Source: a bacterium
GTDB taxonomy: Bacteria; CSSED10-310; JAJRTK01
Direction of reading: 5' to 3'
Assembly: GCA_024278345.1 (NCBI GenBank)
Contig: JAJRTK010000518.1
Span: 1-15,070 of the forward strand
Length of the DNA stretch: 15,070 nt
The position numbers and the translations under genes were made by a program. Positions 4,318-14,006 of this stretch are shown piece by piece. The notes beneath the pieces were generated by a model. It had not been told where the DNA came from. It was given only the letters and a program-made list of their open reading frames with translations, and ran no database searches. How positions within the stretch are numbered: the stretch's first letter is position 1; every line of letters starts with the position of its first letter.

Positions 4318-4373
4318 ATGAAAGGCGAGCGGCGGCGGACGGATTGCCGTCGCCGTGAGCGGAATGCAATCCA
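4318..4373 (+). repeat. Dispersed hairpin repeat, copy A
   Basis: The hairpin GGCGGCGG (4331-4338) / CCGTCGCC (4347-4354), with one G-T pair, closes the loop ACGGATTG. It is followed by GAGCGGAA and an A-rich stretch. It shares the 14-bp core CGGACGGATTGCCG with copies B and C, and 22 contiguous bases with copy B. It sits in the gap between the divergent PBP1C and propeller-protein genes. Confidence 0.65.
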
Positions 4374-4399
4374 AAAAAAGAAGGCGTTTCGCTTGGATT

Positions 4400-6023: not shown

Positions 6024-6078
6024 ATGTTGAGTTCCGCTCGCGTCGACGGCAATCCGTCCGCCGCCACTCGCCACTCAT
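6024..6078 (-). repeat. Dispersed hairpin repeat, copy B
   Basis: Read on the minus strand it matches copy A over 22 contiguous bases in the hairpin and then continues GCGAGCGGAACTCAAC, like copy C. Hairpin arms are at 6042-6049 and 6058-6065 with one mismatch and one wobble. It lies in the 377-bp gap between the propeller gene and valS, about 210 bases upstream of valS and in the opposite orientation. It is therefore not a leader of valS. Confidence 0.65.
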
Positions 6079-11372: not shown

Positions 11373-13826
11373 CTAGATCCAGCGTAGCTCCTCCAGGTGC
11401 GCCACCAGCCGCGTCGCCGCTTCGCGGCGGCCGGCCTTCTTGGTGGCTGCCTGCACGGGTCGAGCACTTTCTCGTGCAGAGCCAGGTGCCTCAGCCCAGG
11501 CGGTAATTTCAAACATCGGTTGGTGCGCCGGCCCCGCCAGCCGGGCCTCCTCATACCCAAAATCACGCAAAAGCCCTTTCTGCCGAGCTTCATTGAGCCG
11601 CATCCTGGGTTCTCCGCCCCCGCTTCCCTCCGATGCGGCCATGGCCAAGCCGGGCGACTCCACCGATCCACCGCCGGTTTCCGGTAAAGACCTGCCCAAA
11701 AGCTGCTCCAGGAGGTCGGCTGCCGCCGCCTGTTGGGCTGTCTTGCCTTTGGAAGCGCGGAATGCCTTACTTTGGATCTTCTGGCCGGAAAGCCGCAACC
11801 AGGCTCGCCCAACAAAACCACCAGGCACTGCCGTTTCCTCGATGGACGGAGCAGGAAGCTTGCGTTGCTGGCAGATCTCCAAGAGCCGCCCCTTTGGGTT
11901 CCTTAACTTGAGATCGGCCTCTTGCTCCGGGTCAACGGATAGGGCGTCGGGCGGATCGATCTTCTTCCGCAGGATCTCCAAGAGCTTCCGAGCCGCAAGC
12001 TGCTCCGCCACTTTCTCCGTATGCCCGCTCCGCACACCGCTGGACACGAGCTCTCCGCGGATCTGGATCTGGAGCTCGGCCACGGGGACTCCCTGGTGCA
12101 GTGTCGCAAGCTTTCGCGGCGGCTCGATGCGCAGCCTCTGGCATAGCTCCAAGAGCCGGCCCTTGGGGTTCTCGGCCTTGAGCTCCGATTCCCGCCGGAG
12201 CTCTTCCTCGGTGGGCTCGCCGCCGCCACCGGGCCTACTCCGCGGCCAAACCATCTGCCGCCGGTGATCGTCGCGGCGGCAGTGGCCACTCGCCTCCAGT
12301 GCCCGAGCAAAACGCTCCAGGACCTCCCCATGGACCGGGTGGCCAAACCAAGCTTCCCCAAGCTGATCGATCCGCAGAGCCACACCGCTTTCCCGGTCTA
12401 GAAGAGAGAGTACCTCGTCCGGCGAGGGAAGGCGGATCTCCCTGGTCACTCTCTTCTGCCGCCGCCGGGGATAGGAGCGCTCGAGCCGAGAGCCGTCCTC
12501 GCAAAGCACCACGTCCTTGACCTGGAGACTTCGGGCAAGGGCTTGCTTGGCCCCGCGATCCCCGTGAACGAGCAGGACTGTCTGGGGCCGCAAAGCCTGG
12601 ATGAGTCCCACCATCTGCATTCGATCAGCGTGGGCCGACAGGCTGTACGTTTCGAAGTGGCACCGCACCTCCACCATCCGTTCGCCCAACTTCAATTCCC
12701 GTGTTCCGGACGTTTGACGGGCAAGATTCAGCAGGTGCCGGCCAGGAGACTCCTCATCCTGGTAGCCGGTGATGAGGATGGCATCCTTGTCGTGACCAGC
12801 CAGCTCCCCGGCGTAGAAGGCTGACGGACCTCCTGAAAGCATGCCGCTAGAGGCGACGATGACGCAAGGGCCAGCCTGGAGGATCTCCTGGCGCTGCCGC
12901 GCCTCCCCCACGGCCTGAACCGAACCGGAGAAGAAGGGATGGCCGGCCTTCTGGCTCTCGTACAGAAGTTGCCGGCTCACGTACCGGTCGTGACTGGAAT
13001 AGACCTGGCAGACAGTCCGGACCATGCCATCCACGAAAACCGGCACTTGCGGGATCCGCCGATGGCGCAGCGCCTCCCGAAGGATCAACAGAATCTCCTG
13101 AGCACGTCCGATGGCGAAGGCGGGAATCAGAACGCGGCCGCCTTCCCCCAGAATCTCGGCGACCCGAGAAACCAGCCGTCGCTCCGCCGTTTTCCGGTCC
13201 GAGTGGAGCCGATTCCCATAGGTCGATTCCGTCACCAGAAGATCCACCGGCAACGTCGGCCGATCCAGGGCCGGAACCGTTCTCTGAGCACTGACGCTGT
13301 AATCCCCCGTCACCAGGATCGAGCCCGAGGGCGTCTCGAAATGCGCCATGGCCGCACCCAGAATATGGGACGCCGGCAGGAAGGTCAGCAGAACTTCGCC
13401 AAGGACCACGGAATGCCCATGCTGGAGCGGAACGAAAGCCGACAACATGGCATCCACCTGCTTTTCGCCGTAGACAGGAAGCTCTCCCTCCCGATCAGCC
13501 GCCATCTTCATGAGTCGCAGAGCATCTCGCTGAAGAATGCGAACCAGGTCGATTGTGGGAGGCGTCGCGTAAATGGGGGCGTGGGGAAAGGCCTCGTGCA
13601 ATACCGGAAGCGCCCCGCTATGGTCGCTGTGGGCGTGCGTCAGGACCACAGCGTCAAGCTCCCGGCCAGTCAAGGCATCCAGATCGGGTAAGGCATGACC
13701 TCTCTTGAAACGAATGCCACAATCCACCAAGATCGAGCGGCCAGCGACCTGGAGAAGGGTACTGGAAGCACCGATCTCGCTGGCTCCACCAAGAAAGCTC
13801 AATCTCAATCGCCCACCTCTGTCCAC
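11373..13826 (-). CDS. Beta-CASP metallo-beta-lactamase-fold ribonuclease with C-terminal dsRNA-binding-like domains
   Basis: Predicted zinc-dependent RNA endonuclease or exonuclease of the CPSF73/YSH1-like group. Counting from GTG 13826: HAHSDH at 64-69, Asp175 in TGDYS, TESTYGNR, beta-CASP motifs PAFAIGRAQE, SAHADR (His399) and LVHGD (His421). Family members usually end near residue 450. This one continues to 817 with a basic linker, then NPKGRLLELCQ...AEQLAARKLLEIL (about 553-622), NPKGRLLEICQ...AQQAAAADLLEQL (about 643-712) and LNEARQKGLL...KKAGRREAATRLVAHL (about 742-816). These look like three dsRBD folds, the third least certain. GTG 13826 has AAGGAG at 6 bases. The frame is open to GTG 14006, but those first codons lie inside repeat copy C. 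GTG 13874 is another option. Confidence 0.85.
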   Translation of the reverse strand: MDRGGRLRLSFLGGASEIGASSTLLQVAGRSILVDCGIRFKRGHALPDLDALTGRELDAVVLTHAHSDHSGALPVLHEAFPHAPIYATPPTIDLVRILQRDALRLMKMAADREGELPVYGEKQVDAMLSAFVPLQHGHSVVLGEVLLTFLPASHILGAAMAHFETPSGSILVTGDYSVSAQRTVPALDRPTLPVDLLVTESTYGNRLHSDRKTAERRLVSRVAEILGEGGRVLIPAFAIGRAQEILLILREALRHRRIPQVPVFVDGMVRTVCQVYSSHDRYVSRQLLYESQKAGHPFFSGSVQAVGEARQRQEILQAGPCVIVASSGMLSGGPSAFYAGELAGHDKDAILITGYQDEESPGRHLLNLARQTSGTRELKLGERMVEVRCHFETYSLSAHADRMQMVGLIQALRPQTVLLVHGDRGAKQALARSLQVKDVVLCEDGSRLERSYPRRRQKRVTREIRLPSPDEVLSLLDRESGVALRIDQLGEAWFGHPVHGEVLERFARALEASGHCRRDDHRRQMVWPRSRPGGGGEPTEEELRRESELKAENPKGRLLELCQRLRIEPPRKLATLHQGVPVAELQIQIRGELVSSGVRSGHTEKVAEQLAARKLLEILRKKIDPPDALSVDPEQEADLKLRNPKGRLLEICQQRKLPAPSIEETAVPGGFVGRAWLRLSGQKIQSKAFRASKGKTAQQAAAADLLEQLLGRSLPETGGGSVESPGLAMAASEGSGGGEPRMRLNEARQKGLLRDFGYEEARLAGPAHQPMFEITAWAEAPGSARESARPVQAATKKAGRREAATRLVAHLEELRWI

Positions 13827-13939
13827 ACGAATCTCCTTGCCATGGCCGAGTCTGCACAAAAAGTTCTGGTCCACCTTACCTTCGGCCTGCAAAGAAGCAA
13901 ATCCTTCTTCGAGGGCCTCTCTTTTCCAAACCGGTTTCT

Positions 13940-14006
13940 TTTCTTTGGGTTGAGTTCCGCTCCCGGCGCCGGCAATCCGTCCGGCGCCACTCGCCTTTTC
14001 ACCCAC
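13940..14006 (-). repeat. Dispersed hairpin repeat, copy C
   Basis: Best hairpin of the family: GGCGCCGG (13965-13972) and CCGGCGCC (13981-13988) pair perfectly over 8 bp around an 8-base loop. Flanks match copy B (GTTGAGTTCCGCTC read on the plus strand) and the A-rich tail matches copy D (AACCCAAAGAAAAGA). It lies in the leader of the nuclease gene or, if GTG 14006 is the start, inside its first 22 codons. Confidence 0.65.

Follow-up and report, generated by a model that had tools for sequence, protein, structure and literature searches.

The window, by which the whole analysed stretch of 15,070 nucleotides is meant, carries on its minus strand a gene whose product combines a metallo-β-lactamase/β-CASP catalytic core with a winged-helix-like linker and three tandem double-stranded RNA-binding domains (dsRBDs). 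The features, all on the minus strand, are as follows:

11373..13826, minus strand: whole gene, 817 aa (GTG start at 13826, stop at 11373-11375)
12513..13808, minus strand: metallo-β-lactamase + β-CASP + RMMBL core, CPSF73/aCPSF1-type (Pfam, NCBIfam, Foldseek, phmmer)
12207..12401, minus strand: winged-helix-like linker, helix-helix-hairpin with the preceding helix (AF2 models)
11952..12176, minus strand: dsRBD 1, with NPKG motif and KxAEQ helix, no GPxH loop (Pfam dsrm, profile, VIA)
11697..11906, minus strand: dsRBD 2, duplicate of dsRBD 1 (Pfam dsrm, best stretch; profile; cross-HMM)
11610..11696, minus strand: flexible unconserved linker from dsRBD 2 to dsRBD 3 (low pLDDT; dN/dS about 1)
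11391..11609, minus strand: dsRBD 3, with canonical LNExxQ, GPxHxPxF and KKxA (dsrm matches of relatives, profile, VIA)

In its maximal form the open reading frame comprises 877 codons (11373-14006), but as a full protein this form starts too early. Codons 3-26 are part of a repeat of about 70 bp that this genome contains at least 40 times, and homologue N-termini lie immediately ahead of an F-L-G-G motif, so that the first 60 codons are probably untranslated. Together with an AAGGAG at 13833-13838, 6 nt upstream of the GTG at 13826, this makes the latter the likely true start, giving the 817-aa protein used for residue numbering here. The GC-rich repeat itself (GGCGCCGGACGG..TGCCGGCGCCGGGAGCGGAA) occupies 13927-13998 on the minus strand and recurs in the window at 4321-4382, 6026-6072 and 390-434, away from the main genes, with copies being 84-95% identical. 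An Rfam scan of the whole window, repeat included, gave no match.

Pfam recognizes Lactamase_B, Beta-Casp and RMMBL in the protein, in addition to two dsrm stretches. An intact β-CASP catalytic core had been claimed by the first-pass annotation, and this holds in detail: the ten zinc-ligand and β-CASP residues, assigned through alignment to MTH1203 with the residue assignments of PMC3095777, are all present (D35, H64, H66, D68, H69, H154, D175, E200, H399 and H421) and invariant in the relatives covering them. Motifs 1-4 and A-C are complete, and motif C is a histidine, which marks RNA-processing rather than DNA-processing β-CASP enzymes (PMC3095777).

Foldseek matches the core to 2ycb, 3af5 and CPSF73, and phmmer finds 2ycb with an E-value of 4e-68. 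The aCPSF1 profile TIGR03675 scores 331 bits (E 1e-98), below its equivalog cut-off of 580, with an alignment starting at profile position 137 of 631; no KH domain was found in the window protein by Pfam or by this profile. The type VII Cas14 profile NF045584 reaches 265 bits against a cut-off of 800 (E 1e-78), with positions 1-429 of 612 aligned. An identity as RNase J is ruled out by the score on TIGR00649 (51 bits against a cut-off of 400), and one as RNase III by the match to TIGR02191, in which the dsRBD part (146-217) alone aligns and the catalytic domain is absent. Overall, the core resembles archaeal aCPSF1 most strongly, followed by CPSF73/INTS11, TTHA0252 and type VII Cas14. The earlier assignment as a β-CASP core can be refined to CPSF73/aCPSF1-type rather than RNase J-type, and by core and motifs the window protein is predicted to be a ribonuclease of this type.

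Downstream of the core, three tandem dsRBD-like units had been proposed within 11373-12180, the first two starting with NPKGRLLE(L/I)CQ. All three units lie in this interval, and the motif is present in both units concerned. AlphaFold2 models of the full protein (pLDDT 78, pTM 0.55) and of the tail alone (pLDDT 82) depict the α-β-β-β-α fold three times and no other fold in the units, preceded by the short winged-helix-like segment; owing to the low pTM, the relative placement of the domains is not predicted. The Pfam dsrm family (PF00035) scores 48.7 bits on the window protein against a cut-off of 23, over two stretches corresponding to units 1 and 2, with an E-value of 8.9e-15 when the tail is searched alone. 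Pfam thereby bears out units 1 and 2 as dsRBDs but leaves unit 3 of the window protein, taken alone, below threshold. In two fusion relatives (L036 and L037) the third unit does score on dsrm and aligns with unit 3 of the window protein, and L036 shows three dsrm stretches. That unit 3 might not be a dsRBD was rejected despite the missing Pfam match of its own, as the relatives, the family profile and the predicted fold all indicate a dsRBD.

Structural superimposition with VIA-align yields Z-scores of 9.7-12 across the three units. Unit 1 superposes on Loquacious dsRBD3 (Z 12.0, 1.8 Å over 69 residues) and on RNase III 1yyk (Z 11.0), and unit 3 on ADAR1 dsRBD3 (Z 10.2, 1.8 Å over 74 residues) and Aquifex RNase III (Z 9.8, 1.7 Å over 71 residues); the sole match confined to unit 2 is DRB3 dsRBD2 (Z 9.7, 3.0 Å over 81 residues). 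The family profile retrieves E. coli RNase III (7r97) at unit 1, the DUS2 dsRBD at unit 2, and the dsRBDs of TRBP, Loquacious, ADAR and RNase III at unit 3. In cross-HMM comparison units 1 and 2 score 49-57 bits on each other, with a shuffled maximum of 8.5, and on this sequence evidence they are taken to be a duplicated pair. Unit 3 scores 29 bits against RNase III dsRBDs (shuffled 7.4) and is nearer to these than to units 1 and 2.

The units also differ in their RNA-contact motifs. Unit 3 possesses helix 1, the GPxH loop and the KKxA helix. Units 1 and 2 begin with NPKG, which does not vary across the fusion proteins, and also have a K/R-x-A helix, with AEQ in unit 1. Neither has GPxH, so that unit 3 is the one unit resembling a canonical dsRNA binder. 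Furthermore, the protein-binding dsRBDs Loqs dsRBD3, TRBP dsRBD3 and Staufen dsRBD5 are among the structures that dsRBD 1 matches best. Given this resemblance and the absence of GPxH from units 1 and 2, a portion of the tail may be protein-binding.

Among close relatives, dN/dS is 0.08-0.13 for the core, 0.09-0.33 for the dsRBDs (0.09-0.19 for dsRBD 1) and about 0.9-1.1 for the linker between dsRBDs 2 and 3. These values are approximate, with dS near saturation in the pairs compared, and it is the contrast between units and linker that counts: each dsRBD unit is under purifying selection, whereas the linker is free. Within dsRBD 3, His768 and Phe772 are invariant (11 of 11), and the helix-1, GPxH and KKxA surfaces are kept in nearly every relative. 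Constrained dN/dS together with cross-scores above the shuffled controls argues that the units are not a chance resemblance.

Relatives were sought in 84,980 species genomes and by additional class- and phylum-wide profile searches. As to whether the same domain order exists elsewhere, a point raised by the first-pass annotation, ten further proteins share it, so that at least 11 bacterial genomes carry the fusion. These are L034, L035, L036, L037, L038, L098 and L155 as well as proteins in G1600, G1601 and G1523; L038 is cut within dsRBD 3 and L098 N-terminally, both by a contig end. Since independent genomes carry the same fusion, an assembly artefact or chimaera is ruled out, and a chimaeric contig is likewise ruled out by the dispersed repeat common to the contig and the rest of its genome. 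All ten relatives belong to Planctomycetota and Myxococcota, and in the window's own phylum, a small one, the gene is present in one of eight genomes, namely that of the window; rpoB is missing from the latter (G000). The seven fusion cores of the window, L034-L038 and L155 form one clade (SH-aLRT 100) in a quick tree of the first seven usable members, calculated with the dsRBD tail excluded and no bootstrap. The fusion is rare even within its phyla: it was found in 1 of 392 genomes of the phylum of L035, 1 of 377 of the phylum of L037, 3 of 296 of the order of L038 and 4 of 317 of the class of G624 (G060 included), and among 386 mixed genomes in the window's own only. These frequencies are lower bounds, few candidates being taken per genome.

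The dsRBD series is not confined to the nuclease. A stand-alone protein of 291 aa from Polyangia (G624, L148:1210-2085) has three dsRBDs in the order seen in the window tail, no β-CASP gene having been found near it, and a second Polyangia genome (G1619, L196) holds a broken-looking form of the series. In addition, the C-terminal tail of a 730-aa SF2 helicase of the ResIII/DEAD type (L188:2143-4335) is related to dsRBDs 2-3 of the window protein and contains NPKGRLLE and GPxN motifs. The helicase gene lies beside a KfrA-like gene on a plasmid-like IMG/VR contig. Viral contigs yielded this one helicase with a related tail and no β-CASP fusion, and a plasmid search with the dsRBD tail gave no match. 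The occurrence of the series alone and, incompletely, on an SF2 helicase suggests a module that can be reused. The winged-helix-like linker is weakly common to a few long β-CASP proteins of Latescibacterota and Gemmatimonadota, in collinear position (best E 3e-6). The simplest history would be a single replacement of a different C-terminal part by the dsRBD series.

No conserved operon surrounds the fusion gene, the neighbours differing in every genome where they are readable. Among them are a translational GTPase, glutamine synthetase, succinyl-CoA synthetase and flagellin, assigned by eye except for glutamine synthetase. In a single case (L155) the gene is arranged tail-to-tail with that of a CARF-PDDEXK protein. 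This neighbour (L157:7579-9069, genome G982) is Can2/Card1-like by PADLOC; a PDB sequence search with it gave no match, and no type III CRISPR genes were recognised beside it in the L157 stretch. RNase III is present in all eight fusion genomes tested, so dsRNA handling is not missing in the hosts. RNase J was found nowhere near its family cut-off in seven of the eight, several of which are incomplete MAGs, making this weak evidence; the exception, at 391 bits just under the cut-off of 400, is G060, a MAG in which two rpoB types occur.

Taking together the domain order, the intact active site, the folds predicted and the evidence of conservation and selection, we consider it reasonably probable that the protein is a zinc-dependent endoribonuclease of the CPSF73/aCPSF1 type whose substrates are chosen by the C-terminal three-dsRBD series. 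The core residues, the three predicted folds, the dsrm matches, the motifs of dsRBD 3, the architecture shared by 11 genomes and the single clade count in its favour; against it count the missing GPxH of units 1 and 2, the likeness of dsRBD 1 to protein-binding dsRBDs, the lack of a conserved operon as a clue to the substrate and the RNase III already present in these genomes. dsRNA binding, cleavage site and targets could then be pictured as follows. dsRBD 3, the canonical RNase III-type module, would dock onto an A-form duplex or onto the stem of a hairpin, while the GPxH-less duplicated pair of dsRBDs 1 and 2 might strengthen binding, gauge spacing or assist in dimerisation, with the winged-helix-like linker connecting core and tail. 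β-CASP active sites admit a single strand via a narrow cleft, and for this reason the cut would likely fall in single-stranded RNA flanking the bound helix and not inside the duplex as in RNase III. Candidate sites would be beside hairpins, in precursors of structured RNAs and in sense-antisense pairs. 5′-3′ exonuclease action, as in some β-CASP relatives, may also be possible.

Three other roles were weighed. The protein might be a general enzyme of mRNA or rRNA decay or maturation acting in place of RNase J, the dsRBDs serving just to raise RNA affinity or to place the enzyme on rRNA. The scarcity of RNase J in the fusion genomes, the presence of RNase III in each one tested and the ordinary chromosomal gene contexts would fit. 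We nevertheless regard this as unlikely, for the core is not RNase J-like, most relatives in these rarely fusion-bearing phyla manage without the gene, and absence from incomplete MAGs carries little weight. A factor for 3′-end formation or transcription termination like aCPSF1 (FttA), its dsRBDs reading terminator hairpins in nascent RNA, would agree with aCPSF1 being the closest named family, and the difference between KH and dsRBD is most simply read as a swap of RNA-recognition modules. Such a role seems very unlikely in view of the score below the aCPSF1 cut-off (331 against 580 bits), the missing KH part and a sporadic gene, whereas aCPSF1 is general in archaea.

There is also a slim chance that the enzyme serves as a defence or surveillance nuclease for foreign dsRNA, with a type VII Cas14-like core and a Dicer-like tail. 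The resemblance of the core to Cas14, the sporadic distribution, the CARF-PDDEXK neighbour and the related dsRBD series of the helicase on the plasmid-like contig all speak for it. On the other hand, the match of the window protein in PADLOC is negligible (LmuA, 15.7 bits), the CARF neighbour occurs just once, and the other neighbourhoods, examined mostly by eye, show no evident defence island, with no CRISPR genes recognised in the stretches covered. Compared with these roles, the endoribonuclease directed by its dsRBDs remains the reading we prefer. A wider proposal is that the series is an undescribed, swappable bacterial triple-dsRBD cassette, which sits on a CPSF-type nuclease, stands alone or, as a partial version, joins an SF2 helicase, and which constitutes a dsRNA pathway apart from RNase III, functionally akin to Dicer- or RIG-I-type recognition of paired RNA; this we hold to be doubtful.

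The order β-CASP core to triple dsRBD is a real new architecture variant of a known enzyme class, its activity being predicted. The parts belong to known families, and the combination appears new to us. The supposition that the layout was undescribed in bacteria agrees with the open-access literature, in which no paper describing a β-CASP/triple-dsRBD fusion was found; a full-text search there for 'beta-CASP' together with 'double-stranded RNA-binding' returned one unrelated insect RNAi paper. To our knowledge, RNase III is the main setting in which dsRBDs occur in bacteria, and the β-CASP enzymes studied so far use single-strand binders as their additional RNA-binding modules, among them the KH domains. 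For the latter this accessory function is described in PMC3095777. By carrying three dsRBDs, a CPSF-type nuclease would point to a second bacterial route of aiming this enzyme class at paired RNA, and it offers a single testable protein for asking how a duplex feeds a single-strand cleft. If it is directed to dsRNA, the question arises which paired RNA Planctomycetota and Myxococcota process beyond RNase III.

Among known systems, archaeal aCPSF1/FttA (PDB codes 2ycb, 3af5, 9bct) shares with the window protein the MBL-β-CASP core (31-32% identity), the zinc and β-CASP residues and the possession of accessory RNA-binding modules. In aCPSF1/FttA these are N-terminal single-strand-binding KH domains, whereas the window protein has C-terminal dsRBDs and the winged-helix-like linker. 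CPSF73, which trims the ends of human messenger RNAs, INTS11 and Ysh1 have the catalytic core and the motif C histidine in common with it, but their C-terminal regions serve complex assembly and contain no dsRBD. The Thermus RNase TTHA0252 is a bacterial CPSF-type endonuclease core with 30% identity; at about 430 aa it consists of the core alone, without an accessory domain. RNase J is a β-CASP ribonuclease as well, but of another core subfamily and without dsRBD; in plants it gained an additional C-terminal GT-1 domain. In RNase III and Dicer, too, a dsRBD targets a nuclease to duplex RNA, and dsRBD 3 is closest to those of RNase III. Their catalytic domain is unrelated, and the cut expected for the window protein would lie outside the duplex. 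Type VII CRISPR Cas14 resembles the window protein in combining a CPSF-like β-CASP core with a long C-terminal extension, but has no dsRBD and acts in a crRNA complex, and the score of the window protein is far below the Cas14 cut-off.

A further comparison is provided by long bacterial β-CASP proteins of about 840 aa (L039-L112), the core of which is in most cases about 40-51% identical to that of the window protein. Some of them have the winged-helix-like linker, but the final ~300 residues form a different region in place of the dsRBDs, for which Pfam gave no match in L041, L044, L064, L068, L073 and L084. The group (e.g. L068:5001-7517, L073:5001-7625 and L084:5001-7502) is aCPSF1-like and occurs in Acidobacteriota, Latescibacterota, Clostridia and others. 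Two of its members, L103:3855-6764 from a Planctomycetota MAG and L112:5055-7877 from a Nitrospirota MAG, display by eye a ParB-like end (SPIEVRRI...YLLIDGLKRIIAAKSLG).
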